DNA of 64,000 nucleotides, from the NCBI GenBank assembly GCA_903934295.1, contig CAIZNI010000013.1, positions 102,888 to 166,887 on the forward strand, in the 5' to 3' direction. Source of the DNA: an uncultured beta proteobacterium (lineage in GTDB: Bacteria; Pseudomonadota; Gammaproteobacteria; Burkholderiales; Burkholderiaceae_E). Shown here in pieces: positions 2,013 through 28,150 of the stretch (positions are counted from its first letter, which is position 1; every line of letters starts with the position of its first letter). Under the pieces are notes generated by a model. It saw only the letters and a list, made by a program, of their open reading frames with translations. It was not told the DNA's origin and searched no databases. Position numbers and translations under genes: made by a program.

Positions 2013-3941
2013 ATGTCCGACCTGAAAGAAACCCTGGGTTTTCAGACCGAGGTTCGTCAGCTGCTGCAGCTGATGATCCATTCGCTCTACAGCCACCGCG
2101 AAATCTTTCTGCGCGAGCTGATCTCCAACGCGTCCGACGCCTGCGACAAGCTGCGCTTCGAGGCGATCGACGCGCCGGCCCTGCTGGCCGATGACCCGGA
2201 GCTCGCGATCCGCATCGAGTTCGATCGCACGGCGCGCACCATCACCATCGCCGACAACGGCATCGGCATGTCGCGCCAGGAAGCGATCGATCACCTGGGC
2301 ACCATTGCGCGTTCGGGAACCCGCGAGTTCTTCGGCAAGCTGTCCGGCGATCAGTCGCGCGATGCCCAGCTGATCGGTCAGTTCGGCGTCGGCTTCTATT
2401 CCTCGTTCATCGTGGCCGATCGGGTGACGGTGCTGACCCGGCGCGCCGGTGCGCCGGTGGCCGAGGGGGTCCGCTGGGAGTCGGAGGGCAGCGGCGATTT
2501 CACCGTCGAGCCGGTCGAGCGTGCAGCCCGCGGCACCGAGGTGATCCTGCATTTGCGCCCGGATGCCGACAGCGGCGATGCCCAGGCGCAGTTCTCGGCG
2601 CTGCTGTCGTCCTGGGAGCTGCGCAGCACCGTGCGCAAGTATTCCGACCACGTCTCCCTGCCGATCCGCATGCGCCAGGAGGAGTGGGACAAGGAGGCGT
2701 CCGAGTACCGCACGCTCGATGCGTGGGAAACGGTCAACCAGGCCAGCGCGCTGTGGACGCGGCCCAAGTCCGAGATCGACGACGAGCAGTACAAGGCCTT
2801 CTATCAGCACGTCTCGCACGACAGCGCCGAGCCGCTGGCTTGGACCCACAACCGGGTCGAAGGCCGCAGCGAGTACACGCAGCTGCTCTACATCCCCTCG
2901 AAGGCGCCGTTCGACATCTGGGACCGCCAGCAGCGCCGCGGGGTCAAGCTCTATGTGCGCCGCGTGTTCATCATGGACGACGCCGGTGAACTGCTGCCGA
3001 CCTACCTGCGCTTCGTGCAGGGCGTGGTCGACTCCAGCGATCTGCCGCTGAATGTGTCGCGCGAAATCCTCCAGGAAAGCCGCGACGTCAAGGCGATCCG
3101 CGAGGGCTGCGCGCGGCGCGTGCTGGCGATGCTCGAAGACCTGGCCGAGAACCAGCAGGACAAGTACGCGCTGTTCTGGAAGGAGTTCGGGCAGGTGCTC
3201 AAGGAGGGGCTGGGCGAGGACACCGCCCAGCAGGAAAAGCTGGCGCGACTGCTGCGCTTTGCCTCCACCGCCAGCGAGAGCAATGAGCAGACCGTTTCGC
3301 TCGACGAGTATGTGGCCCGCATGAAGGAGGGTCAGGAGCACCTCTACTACGTCACCGGCGACACGCCGGCGTCGGCCCGCAACAGTCCGCATCTCGAGGT
3401 CTTCCGCAAGAAGGGCATCGAGGTCCTGCTGCTCACCGATCGGGTCGACGAGTGGATGCTGTCCTTCCTGTCCAGTCATCAGGACCAGGCGCTGATGTCG
3501 GTGGCGCGTGGCGGCCTGGATCTGGGCTCGCTCGCCGATGAGGAAGAAAAGAAGCAGGCCGAGCAGGTGGCCGGCGAGTTCAAGCCGCTGGCCGACCGGA
3601 TTCGCGAGAGCCTGGGCGATCGGGTCAAGGATGTCCGAGTGACCTCCCGGCTGACCGATTCGCCCTGCTGCCTGGTGTCCGACGAAGGCGAGATCAGCGG
3701 TCACCTGGAGCGCCTGCTCAAGCAGGCCGGCCAGCAGGCGCCCGATCGCAAGCCGATTCTCGAGATCAACCCCGAGCACGCGCTGCTGCGGCACCTGAAA
3801 CCGGACGATCCGGCGCTCGACGACTGGTCGGCCCTGCTGTTCGACCAGGCGATCCTGGCCGAAGGCGGGCAACTGGCCGATCCGGCGGCCTTCGTGCGGC
3901 GACTCAATTCGATGCTGCTGGCATCCCCCCGGGCTGACTGA
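2013..3941 (+). CDS. htpG: Molecular chaperone HtpG (bacterial Hsp90)
   Basis: Cytosolic ATP-dependent Hsp90 chaperone of 642 residues, close to the usual 620-640. The N-terminal GHKL ATPase motifs are complete: [15 protein letters not shown] (ATP/Mg-binding Asn), [23 protein letters not shown] (lid) and [11 protein letters not shown]. The middle domain carries the family motif [12 protein letters not shown] and the catalytic Arg region. The C-terminal dimerisation domain ends without the eukaryotic MEEVD, as expected. The ATG at 2013 gives the standard [14 protein letters not shown] start. A sigma32-like promoter lies just upstream. The next gene begins 4 bp after its stop, so co-transcription is likely. 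Confidence 0.98.
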
Positions 3942-3944
3942 GCG

Positions 3945-5273
3945 GTGAGCGGCAAGCCGGGCAGGGGCGCGCAGGCCGCGCGGCTGCGCGGATTCGAACC
4001 GGTCGCCGATGTCCGGGCGCGGGTGCTGGTGCTGGGCAGCTTCCCCAGCGAGGCTTCCCTGGCGGCGGGTCATTACTATGCCCACCCGCGCAACCAGTTC
4101 TGGCGGCTGATGTCGTCGGTGCTGGGCCAGGACCTGCTGCAGGCCGACTGGCCCACGCGCTATGCGGCGCTGCGCGACAACCGCATCGCCCTCTGGGATT
4201 CGGTCGACGCCTGCGAGCGGGCGGGCAGTCTCGATGCCGACATTCGTCAGCCCGAGGCGAATGATCTGGGCACGCTGGTCGCCCGGCTGCCCGAGCTTCG
4301 CCGGATCGTGTTCAATGGCGCGACCGCCGCCCGCCAGGCGCGGCGTCTGGCCGAGTCGGGCTTCGAGATCCGGGTGCTGCCCTCGAGCAGCCCGGCCCAT
4401 GCGGCGATGCCGTTCGAGGCCAAGTGCGAGCGCTGGCAGGAGGCCCTGTCGGAACGTTTTCCCGCGGATGAGCGCGAGCCCGCCCCGGACAACCCGCGAC
4501 CGGCGACGCGGGGGCGCCATCGCTCGGTGGCGGTGCCGATCAACCTGTCGGAGTTCGCCGGTGTCCGATACCTGCATTTCGGTACCCCCTGGGTCCAGGG
4601 TGCGATGCTGACGGCGCATCCGAACCTGCTGGTGCTCGACTACATCCAGCGCATGATGGCCTGGCTGCTCTTCCTGTCGCCGCCCGCCGAGATCCTGCAA
4701 CTCGGGCTGGGCGCGGGATCGCTCACCCGCTTCGTGCATGCGCGCCTTGCGCCCAGCCGGATCACCGTGGTCGAGTACAGCCGCGATGTCATCGAGGTGA
4801 CCCGATCGTTCTTTGCGCTGCCGCCGGATGACGCGCGGCTGCAGGTGCAGTGCGACGAGGCCGAGCGTTTCGTCGCCCGGCCTGCGCTGGCCGGCCGCTT
4901 CGGCGTGATCCAGGTCGACCTCTATGACGAAGAGGCGCGCGGACCCGCGGTCGATTCGGAATCGTTCTATCGTGACTGCCGGCGCGTGCTGGCCGAGCCC
5001 GGCATCTGCGCGGTCAATCTGTTCGGCAGCCACCGGTCGTTCGCCCCGAATCGGGCACGCCTGTCGGCGGCTTTCGACGGCCGCTTGCTCGAATTGCCGC
5101 CCAATCGCGAGGGCAACCGGATCGTGCTGGCCTTTGCCGGCCCGCCCCTGCGCATCGAGTGGTCAGCGCTCGAGCAGCGGGCCCGCTGGCTGGAGCAACG
5201 CTTCGGCTGGCCCGCGACCGCCTGGTGCCGCCTGCTCAAAGCCCGTCGCCGGCGCGCCGTCTGCGAGGTTTGA
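3945..5273 (+). CDS. Fusion: DNA-deoxyinosine (hypoxanthine) glycosylase-like domain + spermidine-synthase-like domain
   Basis: A single 442-codon frame from GTG 3945, three bases after htpG. Residues about 25-170 resemble family-6 uracil/hypoxanthine-DNA glycosylases: LGSFPSEASL, then HYYAHPRNQFWRLM (about 43-56), and the late SSSPAHA motif (about 147-153). A charged, Pro/Arg-rich linker (about 172-195) leads into a spermidine-synthase-like Rossmann domain: NLSEFAGVRYLHFGTPWVQGAM, the SAM/aminopropyl-donor loop LQLGLGAGSLTRF (about 251-263), and VVEYSRDVIEV. In many bacteria these are separate proteins. The N-terminal part would excise deaminated bases. The C-terminal part may be a polyamine synthase or only a fold relative. 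Function of the fusion is inferred. Confidence 0.75.
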   Translation: MSGKPGRGAQAARLRGFEPVADVRARVLVLGSFPSEASLAAGHYYAHPRNQFWRLMSSVLGQDLLQADWPTRYAALRDNRIALWDSVDACERAGSLDADIRQPEANDLGTLVARLPELRRIVFNGATAARQARRLAESGFEIRVLPSSSPAHAAMPFEAKCERWQEALSERFPADEREPAPDNPRPATRGRHRSVAVPINLSEFAGVRYLHFGTPWVQGAMLTAHPNLLVLDYIQRMMAWLLFLSPPAEILQLGLGAGSLTRFVHARLAPSRITVVEYSRDVIEVTRSFFALPPDDARLQVQCDEAERFVARPALAGRFGVIQVDLYDEEARGPAVDSESFYRDCRRVLAEPGICAVNLFGSHRSFAPNRARLSAAFDGRLLELPPNREGNRIVLAFAGPPLRIEWSALEQRARWLEQRFGWPATAWCRLLKARRRRAVCEV

Positions 5274-5367: not shown

Positions 5368-7215
5368 ATGGCCCATGACACCTCCCTCGACCTTTCGCCG
5401 CTGACCGACGCGCACGACGATCCATCGACCCGGGTAGCCGCGCCGCGCGCGCTGGGCAAACCCGGTCAGCGGGTCCAGGTCGGCGAGCTCATCGATGCGC
5501 TGGTCGAGGATGGCCTGCTCGAGGACGACCAGGGTGCCAAGCTGGCGCTCTACTCGAAGCTGTCGACCTCCGAGCAGCACGCGCTGGTGTCGCTGGCGCA
5601 GCGCCAGCTGCGCAGCGCCCGTCCACCTCACCGAACCCTCGACCTCGAAACGCTCACCGAGTGGTTCGCCGCCCGCGTCGGGCTCGCCTATGTGCACATC
5701 GATCCGCTTCGGGTGAACCTGTCCAAGGTGGCCGAGGTGATGTCGAGCCAGTACGCCACCCGCTTTCGCATCCTGCCCATCGAGGTGCGACCCGGCGAGG
5801 TGGTGATCGCCACCGCAGAACCCTTTCTGACCGACTGGATCCCGGAGCTCACGCACCTGCTGCGCACCGAGATCCGGCGGGTGGTCGCCAACCCGCAGGA
5901 CATCACCCGCTACATCGCCGAGTTCTTCTCGCTGGCCAAGTCGGTGCGCAACGCGCAGAAGAACGGCGCGACCAACAACCAGAACAACTTCGAGCAGCTG
6001 GTCGAACTCGGGCGCAGCGGCAAGAACGTCGACGCCAACGATCAGCACGTCGTCACCATCGTCGACTGGCTGATGCAATACGCGTTCGAGCAGCGTGCCA
6101 GCGACATCCACCTGGAGCCGCGGCGCGATCTGGGCGTGGTGCGCTTTCGCATCGACGGTGTGCTGCACAACGTTTACCAGGTGCCGGTGGCGGTGCTGTC
6201 GGCGATGACCAGCCGGATCAAGCTGCTGGGCCGCATGGATGTGGTCGAGAAACGCCGTCCGCAGGACGGTCGCATCAAGACACGCGGGCAGACCGGCCGC
6301 GAGGTCGAACTGCGCCTGTCGACGCTGCCCACCGCTTTTGGTGAGAAGCTGGTGATGCGGATCTTCGACCCCGATGTGCTGGTCCGCGATTTCACCGAGC
6401 TCGGCTTCAACGACGAGGACCGCAGCCTGTGGAACGCGATGGTCTCGCGCCCCAACGGCATTGTGCTGGTGACCGGCCCGACCGGCTCGGGCAAGACGAC
6501 GACGCTCTACACCACCCTCAAGCAGCTCGCCACCGAGGAGGTCAACGTGTGCACGGTCGAGGACCCGATCGAGATGGTCGAGCCCTCGTTCAACCAGATG
6601 CAGGTGGTCCACGGCATCGACCTGTCCTTCGCCGATGGCATCCGGGCGCTGATGCGCCAGGATCCCGACATCATCATGGTGGGCGAGATCCGCGACCTCG
6701 AGACAGCCGAAATGGCGGTGCAGGCCGCGCTCACCGGCCACCTGGTGCTGTCGACCCTGCACACCAACGACGCGCCTTCGGCGATCACCCGGCTGCTTGA
6801 TCTGGGGGTGCCGTCGTACCTGATCAGTTCGACGCTGGTGGGCGTGATGGCCCAGCGTCTGGTGCGCACCCTCTGCCCGAACTGCAAGGAGGAGGGGGCC
6901 GAGATCGACGAGGCGCAGTGGAAATCGCTGATCTCGCCGTTCCGGGCGCGCAAGCCCGATCGCGTCTGGCGGGCGGTCGGATGCCTCGATTGCCGGATGA
7001 CCGGCTACAAGGGCCGCAGCGGCATCTATGAGCTGCTGCTGCTCACCGATGAGCTGAAGGCCCTGATCGACGCGCAGCCCGATCCCCGCAAGCTGCGCTC
7101 CAGTGCGATCCGCAGCGGGCTGCGACCGCTGCGTCTGTCGGGCGCGCAGAAGATCGCGCAGGGGGTGACCACCTTCGAGGAGGTCATCCGGAACGCGCCG
7201 CCGATCGAGCACTGA
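5368..7215 (+). CDS. GspE/PulE/PilB family secretion or pilus assembly ATPase
   Basis: Cytoplasmic hexameric motor ATPase of 615 residues. An N-terminal MshEN-like region (about 35-200) precedes the ATPase core. Walker A is GPTGSGKTTTLY (about 370-381), the Asp box is seen around CTVEDPIE, Walker B around MVGEIRDLETAE, and a His box as LSTLHTNDAPSA. A zinc-binding tetracysteine occurs near the end (CPNC ... CLDC), a mark of GspE/PilB rather than the retraction ATPase PilT. No GspF, GspG, pilin or secretin gene is next to it, so the machine it drives is unknown. It stands alone between unrelated genes. Confidence 0.9.
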   Translation: MAHDTSLDLSPLTDAHDDPSTRVAAPRALGKPGQRVQVGELIDALVEDGLLEDDQGAKLALYSKLSTSEQHALVSLAQRQLRSARPPHRTLDLETLTEWFAARVGLAYVHIDPLRVNLSKVAEVMSSQYATRFRILPIEVRPGEVVIATAEPFLTDWIPELTHLLRTEIRRVVANPQDITRYIAEFFSLAKSVRNAQKNGATNNQNNFEQLVELGRSGKNVDANDQHVVTIVDWLMQYAFEQRASDIHLEPRRDLGVVRFRIDGVLHNVYQVPVAVLSAMTSRIKLLGRMDVVEKRRPQDGRIKTRGQTGREVELRLSTLPTAFGEKLVMRIFDPDVLVRDFTELGFNDEDRSLWNAMVSRPNGIVLVTGPTGSGKTTTLYTTLKQLATEEVNVCTVEDPIEMVEPSFNQMQVVHGIDLSFADGIRALMRQDPDIIMVGEIRDLETAEMAVQAALTGHLVLSTLHTNDAPSAITRLLDLGVPSYLISSTLVGVMAQRLVRTLCPNCKEEGAEIDEAQWKSLISPFRARKPDRVWRAVGCLDCRMTGYKGRSGIYELLLLTDELKALIDAQPDPRKLRSSAIRSGLRPLRLSGAQKIAQGVTTFEEVIRNAPPIEH

Positions 7216-25986: not shown

Positions 25987-27107
25987 GCGGCATGGCCCCG
26001 ATGCGACCCGGACGCGAGCCGGCCGTCCCGAGCCTCCCGGCCGGCGCCGGGCAGGCGGCGATCGAGCTGGTGGTCTTCGACTGGGATGGCACCCTGATCG
26101 ATTCGACGGCCCCGATCGTCGATGCCCTCTGCCTGACCGCGACCGACCTCGGCTTGCCGCCGCCGTCGCGCGAGCAGGCCCGCCAGGTCGTTGGCCTGGG
26201 TCTCGCGCAGGCGATCCGCCACATCGCGCCAAGCGCCTCCGGCGAACAGCTGGCCGCATTCATCGACGGCTGCCGCGCCCGCTTTGCCGTCCTGAATGAC
26301 GAACTGCGTCCGTTCGCCGGCATCGTCGACCTGCTCGAGGACCTGCACGCGCTGGGCGTGCCGCTGGCGGTCGCCACCGGCATGTCGCGCAGCGGCCTCG
26401 ACCGGGCGCTGGCGCGCCTGAACTGGGTCAGTCTGTTCGCCGGTACCCGATGCGGCGACGAGGGTATTCCCAAGCCGGACGCCTGGATGTTGCGGGATCT
26501 GTGCGACACCCTTGGGGTGGCGCCGTCGCGCGCAGTGATGATCGGCGACACCACTCATGACCTGGGCATGGCGGCCGCGGCGGGCGCTCCCGGTGTGGCG
26601 GTGAGCTACGGTGCCCACCGGCGCGAGGCCCTGGCGGCCGGACAGCCGGCGGCGCTCGTCGACGAGGTGGCGCAGCTGCGCGCATGGCTCTGGCCGCGGC
26701 TGGTTGCGGCGGGTCGCGATCTGCCGCCCGGTTCGCACTGGCGGGCGGTCTGCGTGTCGGCCGATCTGAAGGAAGGCGGCGATGGGGTGCGCTTCGATGC
26801 CGCGCCGCCGGGCGCCGGCGCGCCCGGCACGACCGCCAGACGGCCGGCATTCGTGGTTCGCCACGAGGGGCTGCCAAGGGCTTATCTGAACGAGTGCGCC
26901 CATGTGCCCGTCGAGCTCGACTGGCCGGCCGGCCGCTTCTTCGATCACAGCGGCCTATACTTGGTGTGTGCCACCCATGGCGCGACCTATCGCGCCGCCG
27001 ATGGAAGCTGTGCCGGCGGCCCTTGCCGCGGCCGCGGCCTGACTCCCCTGAAGACCCGGGAATCCAACGGCAGAGTCTGGGTGGCCTTCGAAACCCGCGA
27101 CGCATGA
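25983..27107 (+). CDS. Fusion: HAD-superfamily phosphatase + Rieske [2Fe-2S] domain
   Basis: 374 codons from GTG 25983 (ATG 25992 is an equally good start), overlapping the rluC stop. Residues about 28-238 form a phosphoglycolate-phosphatase-like HAD hydrolase: DWDGTLID (nucleophile D33, D35), the motif II Thr in ATGMS, K164 in GIPKPDA, and IGDTTHD (D189, D193). Residues about 250-374 are a Rieske domain with C305-A-H307 and C329-x2-H332 ligands. In other betaproteobacteria I know these as two adjacent genes before sppA. Here there is no stop between them. The substrate and any electron-transfer role are unknown. Confidence 0.85.
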   Translation: MSGMAPMRPGREPAVPSLPAGAGQAAIELVVFDWDGTLIDSTAPIVDALCLTATDLGLPPPSREQARQVVGLGLAQAIRHIAPSASGEQLAAFIDGCRARFAVLNDELRPFAGIVDLLEDLHALGVPLAVATGMSRSGLDRALARLNWVSLFAGTRCGDEGIPKPDAWMLRDLCDTLGVAPSRAVMIGDTTHDLGMAAAAGAPGVAVSYGAHRREALAAGQPAALVDEVAQLRAWLWPRLVAAGRDLPPGSHWRAVCVSADLKEGGDGVRFDAAPPGAGAPGTTARRPAFVVRHEGLPRAYLNECAHVPVELDWPAGRFFDHSGLYLVCATHGATYRAADGSCAGGPCRGRGLTPLKTRESNGRVWVAFETRDA

Positions 27108-28150
27108 CCACACCCGACGATCCCGATTCCCGGCCCGCAGCGGCCGGATCTTCCGACTTGCCCTCAACCGGTGCTGCATCGGCCGCTGGTGCGCAAGGTC
27201 AGTCACCGGGATGGGAGCGCGCGGTCCTCGAGAAACTCGCGCTGTCGAGCCTCGATGAAAAACGTCGCGCGCGCCGCTGGAACATTTTTTTCAAGATCCT
27301 GTTCTTCGCCTATCTGGCCCCTTTCCTGCTCATCTTCCTGGGCTGGTGGTCGCCGGGCGAGCACAAGGCCGGACAGGCCGGTCGCCATACCGCGATGGTC
27401 GACATCAAGGGCGTCATCGAGTCCGACGGCGAGGCGTCCGCCGAGGCGATCAACGCCGCGTTGCGTCTGGCCTTCGAAGACGTCAAGACGGCCGGCATCG
27501 TGCTGCGCCTGAACACGCCCGGCGGCAGCCCGGTCCAGGCCGGCATCGTTCACGACGAGATCAAGCGCCTGCGGGCCCTGCATCCGGACACGCCGGTGTA
27601 TGCGGTGATCGAGGAAATCTGCGCCTCGGGCGGCTACTACATCGCCGCGGCAGCCGACCGCATCTATGTCGACAAGGCGAGCATGGTGGGCTCGATCGGC
27701 GTCCTGATGGACGGCTTCGGTTTCGTGGGGGCGATGGACAAGGTGGGCGTCGAGCGACGCCTGCTCACCGCTGGGCGCAACAAGGGCTTTCTCGACAGCT
27801 TTTCGCCGATGAACGACGAGCACCGGCAGATCGCCCAGAAGATGCTGAGCGAGATTCATCAGCAGTTCATCGAGGTGGTGAAGGCCGGCCGTGGTGCTCG
27901 ACTGAAGGACAGCCCCGATCTGTTCACCGGTCAGGTCTGGTCGGGCGCGCGCAGCATCGAACTCGGCCTGGCCGATGCCCTGGGCTCTGTCGAGGGTGTG
28001 GCCCGTGATGTCATCAAGGCAGAGGACATCGTCGATTTCTCGACCCATGAGAACCTGGCCGAGCGCCTGGCCAAGCGGATCGGGGCGGCGGCCGGCCAGA
28101 CGCTGGCCGGGACGCTCAGCGCCGCCGGGGTGACCCCGCGCCTGCGCTGA
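27104..28150 (+). CDS. sppA: Signal peptide peptidase SppA-like S49 peptidase (short form)
   Basis: 348 residues from ATG 27104, overlapping the previous stop (ATGA). A cytoplasmic N-terminus is followed by one membrane segment (IFFKILFFAYLAPFLLIFLGW, about 63-83) and a periplasmic S49 domain. The nucleophile Ser is in EEICASGGYYIA, the general-base Lys in GRNKGFLDSF. It degrades cleaved signal peptides or other small membrane peptides. Its 3' end overlaps the converging gene by 35 bp. Confidence 0.9.
   Translation: MTTPDDPDSRPAAAGSSDLPSTGAASAAGAQGQSPGWERAVLEKLALSSLDEKRRARRWNIFFKILFFAYLAPFLLIFLGWWSPGEHKAGQAGRHTAMVDIKGVIESDGEASAEAINAALRLAFEDVKTAGIVLRLNTPGGSPVQAGIVHDEIKRLRALHPDTPVYAVIEEICASGGYYIAAAADRIYVDKASMVGSIGVLMDGFGFVGAMDKVGVERRLLTAGRNKGFLDSFSPMNDEHRQIAQKMLSEIHQQFIEVVKAGRGARLKDSPDLFTGQVWSGARSIELGLADALGSVEGVARDVIKAEDIVDFSTHENLAERLAKRIGAAAGQTLAGTLSAAGVTPRLR

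Follow-up and report, generated by a model that had tools for sequence, protein, structure and literature searches.

Glycosylases of UDG family 6 are described as acting predominantly on hypoxanthine in DNA (PMC10776899). Spermidine synthases are reported to need D or E in the motif GxG(D/E)G for binding of decarboxylated SAM, and in the same account the absence of that D or E separates the N-terminal histidine methyltransferase (NHMT) from the spermidine synthases, while an acidic residue that matches E277 of the protein analysed here is linked to SAM binding (PMC10349129). The GxG(D/E)G motif is said to be highly conserved among aminopropyltransferases (PMC11107197), and the C-terminal domain of METTL13 has been presented as a distant relation of spermidine synthase (PMC6109062). 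In our literature search no paper combined a deoxyinosine glycosylase with a spermidine synthase, none of the 10 listed out of 277 matches paired a hypoxanthine DNA glycosylase with a gene fusion, a methyltransferase or an operon, and none paired METTL13 with the term 'spermidine synthase-like'. A DNA-deoxyinosine glycosylase is named in a single paper of that search, which deals with Campylobacter transcriptomes.

In the window (the whole stretch of 64,000 nt that was analysed, from an uncultured beta proteobacterium), a domain of the first kind and a domain with the spermidine-synthase fold are encoded in one ORF that begins 3 nt after the stop of htpG (Table 1). The original prediction, which described a glycosylase and a spermidine-synthase-like domain in a single frame, both intact, is confirmed on these points: the ORF is there, the motifs quoted for it are present, and both the family-6 type glycosylase and the spermidine-synthase fold look whole.

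Table 1. Position of the joined ORF, its parts and its neighbours in the window
Feature	Position	Strand	Basis or remark
htpG (Hsp90), directly upstream	2013..3941	+	PF00183
Joined ORF, 442 aa: DNA-deoxyinosine (hypoxanthine) glycosylase and spermidine-synthase-fold domain	3945..5273	+	single open frame, GTG start
Family-6 type glycosylase domain of the UDG superfamily (residues 16-164)	3990..4436	+	TIGR04274, PF03167, 2l3f
Pro/Arg-rich linker (residues 172-194), predicted disordered	4458..4526	+	pLDDT under 50
Off-frame ATGA, probable relic of a two-gene state	4468..4471	+	read from sequence; residue 175
In-frame GTG, candidate start for a stand-alone second protein	4527..4529	+	read from sequence only
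Domain with spermidine-synthase fold (residues 197-434), probable SAM-dependent methyltransferase	4533..5246	+	NF003380 below cut-off, PF01564 over cut-off, model, A257
Type II/IV secretion ATPase gene, downstream	5368..7215	+	PF00437, PF05157

The full-length model of the joined protein, built from 15 sequences, consists of two confident parts separated by the linker, which has pLDDT under 50, as have residues 1-9, and its overall pTM is low (0.57). Given two folded halves, a disordered linker and this low pTM, the model lends no support to a fixed arrangement of the domains or to a channel between their sites.

For the first half, the model TIGR04274 (DNA-deoxyinosine glycosylase) scored 156.6 bits on residues 16-164, against a cut-off of 80, and PF03167 scored 42.5 bits against 24.3. 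Its nearest solved relative by sequence is 2l3f (E 3.9e-28), to which 144 residues align without gaps, with N50 and N124 falling on N39 and N113. The latter two we take to be the active-site asparagines, with a catalytic role, of the Methanosarcina barkeri family-6 enzyme, and N50 and N124 are invariant in 87 out of 87 relatives. From this homology we infer that the first half would act as a family-6 type hypoxanthine-DNA glycosylase, removing deaminated adenine from DNA and leaving an abasic site.

The same two domains were then located in relatives. After 10 repeats had been dropped from 127 loci, 117 distinct loci were left: in 74 of them no more than 300 nt separate the end of the glycosylase homology from the second homology downstream, and a stop intervenes (hereafter close pairs), in 17 the distance is greater, 25 showed no same-strand glycosylase in the stretch examined, and only one locus, the window, is joined; pairs may be over-represented in these counts, since the loci were picked by their similarity to the joined protein. 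In a sample of 74 genomes of the family, both domains were found in 41, comprising the window (joined), 30 genomes with adjacent domains and 10 with domains that lie apart or on different contigs, a tally made by hand in which a few of the 30 adjacent cases sit at the end of a contig or include an incomplete domain. As judged from sequence, several Burkholderiales families have the two genes next to each other, and no adjacent pair was seen outside Burkholderiales among the matches listed for the wider genome samples (369 and 398 genomes).

The original prediction had pointed to recurrence of the fusion in a clade as the matter to be checked, and within the limits of our searches the window stands alone. 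No second unbroken full-length match was present among the matches listed for overlapping samples of 61, 74, 399, 369 and 398 genomes, for the last three of which E cut-offs of 1e-40, 1e-30 and 1e-25 were used and at most four candidates were scored per genome, so that a distant fusion could escape. The other spanning matches listed (G003, G015, G014, G330, G359, G387, G164 and G208) have one stop each, and of the matches that start at residues 126-165 (for example G095, G077, G342, G823, G1075 and G378) none, by its range, reaches the first motif of the glycosylase. In G095 (contig C83, stretch L034), the glycosylase neighbouring the second gene gives fragmentary matches only and may be broken. 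Two sister genomes of the same genus, G002 and G006, have no glycosylase match; a possible start of their second gene overlaps the htpG stop as GTGA, and the protein that this gene encodes begins with the stretch GRHR, which is also found in the linker of the window protein.

The junction itself points to the way in which the two frames were joined. In 69 of the 74 close pairs the glycosylase stop falls at residues 170-179 on the scale of the window protein, and in 35 of the 74 a possible start overlaps the stop. At residue 175, which corresponds to the usual stop/start junction of the relatives, an ATGA stands out of frame in the window, and because of this off-frame ATGA the joining was probably brought about by frame changes, or else is an assembly error. 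Moreover, the ORF frame contains no ATG, GTG or TTG from 4407, a position within the glycosylase domain, to 4527, just past the GRHR stretch, and therefore the stretch held in common with the second protein of the sister species has no start of its own in the window. Taken together, the ATGA and this GRHR stretch without a start suggest frame changes around an old overlap. The original prediction held that the ORF does not look like a frameshift, a view that finds no support in the off-frame ATGA, in the stops of the close pairs or in the lack of an in-frame start.

The ATGA may also stand at the junction by chance; among random stretches with the same base composition, such a tetranucleotide is expected in 2.4% (length 36 nt) to 5.8% (86 nt), and among codon-shuffled ones in 24.8%. 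Codon log-odds over 4456-4527 were -0.2 in the ORF frame, -1.4 in the +1 frame and -10.3 in the third frame, with no clear coding signal in any of them, the test having been trained on mechanically picked ORFs that possibly include false ones.

Small assembly or sequencing errors at the junction could have removed the stop between two genes that are in reality separate and overlapping, and we regard such an artefact as quite possible, if short of probable. It would agree with the window being the sole joined locus of the 117 and the sole unbroken full-length match among those listed in the five genome samples, as well as with an ATGA lying off-frame where the junction is expected and with no start codon available in frame around it; in addition, short runs of one base flank the ATGA on both sides (4457-4463 and 4510-4514), although the usual overlap, as read from the sequence, is restored only by two changes about 50 nt apart. 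A DNA comparison with three genomes of the same genus (G003, G002 and G006; 41 regions, 38.7 kb) also argues against error, given that no other obvious split gene was detected in the window, with 20 of the 41 regions reaching 90% coverage and 21 remaining under 90%. The original prediction had named, as the finding that would tell against it, close relatives with two separate genes and a stop missing here through a sequencing error: the separate genes are indeed found in relatives, and a sequencing error is a possible cause of the missing stop.

Elsewhere in the window, positions 26684-28150 form one long ORF, whereas G003 matches them with two ORFs whose frames differ.

Plain loss of a stop would also account for the joining, given that in 31 of the 74 close pairs the two genes share one frame that is interrupted by a stop, G003 of the same genus being one of these. 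In this case a real joined gene would have arisen by loss of a single in-frame stop from an arrangement like that of G003, and the spacing between a conserved Trp and a shared SE..G motif is in keeping with such an event, since it amounts to 43 residues in the window and to 46 positions, stop included, in G003. Nevertheless, a shifted overlap fits the ATGA and the missing start codon better, and the linker is without a clear coding signal in any frame, so that loss of a stop seems to us unlikely, though not far-fetched.

With respect to the second half, its best NCBIfam model, NF003380, scored 192.1-193.7 bits on residues 197-434, under its cut-off of 304, and the spermidine synthase equivalog models also stayed under their cut-offs (TIGR00417, 27.3 against 249.55 bits; NF002010, 37.3 against 260 bits); PF01564 was over its cut-off (31.7 against 22.9 bits). 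The model of this domain (residues 191-442) is confident, with pLDDT 94.7 and pTM 0.92, and among solved structures its fold comes closest to spermidine synthases and to METTL13, a human methyltransferase. Foldseek gave the same E value (7.1e-11) for 5wcj (METTL13) and 3gjy (spermidine synthase), and VIA-align gave Z 22.5 for 3gjy (rmsd 3.7, 234 residues aligned) and Z 21.1 for 5wcj; in these comparisons the identity to METTL13 is 25%. The profile search ranked METTL13 first (E 2.1e-21, against 8.6e-18 for 3gjy), and METTL13 is also the best solved match of the domain by single sequence. The N-terminal strands of the model align to spermidine synthases; PF17284, the N-terminal tetramerisation domain, is present in the SpeD-SpeE protein of this genome and was unlisted for the window protein at E values up to 1, in a search in which the HMMER filters drop weak matches.

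The GxGxG motif of the second domain reads GLGAG (residues 254-258), with A257 in the place where aminopropyltransferases have D or E. Among 99 relatives this position holds A in 78, T in 17, S in 3 and G in 1, and in none of the 99 D or E, and the genome's own SpeE has D at the matching position. The acidic SAM-binding residue is conserved as E277, with E in 92 of the 99 relatives and D in the other 7, and so are D325 and D328, presumably two pocket-lining aspartates of spermidine synthases (99 and 98 of the 99, respectively).

A search of the genome with PF02675 (AdoMet decarboxylase) gave one match, within one ORF that also encodes a spermidine synthase (464 aa). This SpeD-SpeE fusion lies at 787-2181 of stretch L129 (contig C34), and its GGGDGG motif is intact. 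On another contig of the genome (C15; 1264-3234 of stretch L131, minus strand), a 656 aa protein has a C-terminal PF01564 match of 25.3 bits in the genome search; scanned whole, it matched no Pfam family at E 1e-5, and by eye it is a membrane protein with a spermidine-synthase-like tail. In the family sample PF02675 was found in 47 of the 74 genomes, and of the 27 genomes in which SpeD was not detected, several of them incomplete, 24 match the second domain at E 1e-40 or better, the match in G076 being partial; in the remaining three, G019 and G079 have no match to the second domain and G021 has a weaker, partial one. All nine genomes of one genus (g2) carry the second domain and none of them has a SpeD match. 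Since the domain is present in 24 of the 27 genomes without detected SpeD, the NCBIfam name 'polyamine aminopropyltransferase' looks doubtful for these proteins.

Three findings make it probable that the second domain is something other than a spermidine synthase: its motif has no D or E, the genome has a separate SpeD-SpeE protein, and the domain occurs in genomes where SpeD was not detected. The domain is probably methyltransferase-like instead, given that METTL13 is its best solved match by both single sequence and profile and that its motif lacks D or E and is accompanied by E277. Most likely it would use ordinary SAM and methylate some substrate rather than make spermidine. As evidence to the contrary, the domain is by fold at least as close to true spermidine synthases, and the SpeD domain of this genome should make decarboxylated SAM. 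The closeness in fold and the retention of D325 and D328 mean that the domain may be an unusual aminopropyltransferase.

If the joined ORF were real and expressed, it could point to a working partnership in which the glycosylase and the methyltransferase act at the same site on DNA or nucleoprotein, for instance through modification of DNA or of a protein where bases are deaminated, a reading that we consider rather improbable. The link drawn in the original prediction, a truly bifunctional enzyme in which base excision is coupled to polyamine synthesis, is far less credible still: two intact domains in one frame, the spermidine-synthase fold, the retained D325 and D328 and a SpeD domain in the genome speak for it, but the motif is without the D or E that the account cited asks of spermidine synthases (PMC10349129), in the window as in the 99 relatives, the scores of NF003380, TIGR00417 and NF002010 are far under their cut-offs, the genome's SpeD is paired with a SpeE of its own, the domain occurs in 24 of the 27 family genomes without detected SpeD, and none of the genomes searched yielded the fusion a second time. 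This coupling was accordingly dropped as a likely reading, on the missing D or E, the separate SpeD-SpeE protein and the occurrence of the domain where SpeD was not detected.

We therefore favour, as the probable reading, a joining in a single genome of two neighbouring, same-strand and often overlapping genes, which encode a hypoxanthine-DNA glycosylase and a probable methyltransferase of the spermidine-synthase fold, tied together by a flexible linker. This reading draws on sequence evidence, namely the two domains, their occurrence as separate neighbours in relatives, the lack of any other unbroken joined match in the samples and the missing D or E. The joined frame would have originated by small changes at the old gene junction, either within the organism's own lineage or through an error of assembly, and it is reasonable to suppose that each half works much as it does when made separately, given that the linker between them is flexible. 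The joined ORF thus looks like a one-off, or false, joining of a conserved neighbouring pair.

As a fusion, the ORF is of little importance: it was found in one genome, may be an artefact and has no link with polyamines. The conserved gene pair is more promising. In several Burkholderiales families this pair links a DNA-deoxyinosine glycosylase to a protein that is annotated 'polyamine aminopropyltransferase' and is possibly misnamed. If the two proteins work together, the pair would provide a first clue to what this methyltransferase-like family acts on.

Among known systems, the first half resembles UDG family 6 (TIGR04274, 2l3f), in that the whole domain scores over the curated cut-off and both asparagines are kept; it differs in continuing in frame into a second domain, whereas a stop intervenes in the 74 close pairs of the relatives. 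The PRK04457/NF003380 'polyamine aminopropyltransferase' family is the one closest to the second domain in NCBIfam, and it matches 57 of the 57 members of our alignment A1, but the domain of the window falls below the family cut-off and, in the relatives examined, is encoded by a separate gene. The C-terminal domain of METTL13 and the fungal NHMT are both described as having a spermidine-synthase-like fold (PMC6109062, PMC10349129), and NHMT, like the domain of the window, is reported to be without the D or E for decarboxylated SAM, although it carries in addition a seven-transmembrane part (PMC10349129). Finally, the AdoMet decarboxylase-aminopropyltransferase fusions described for Ca. Pelagibacter (PMC11107197) likewise have a domain of the spermidine-synthase fold at the C-terminal end, but there the partner makes the cosubstrate of the enzyme to which it is fused, whereas in the window the partner is a DNA glycosylase.
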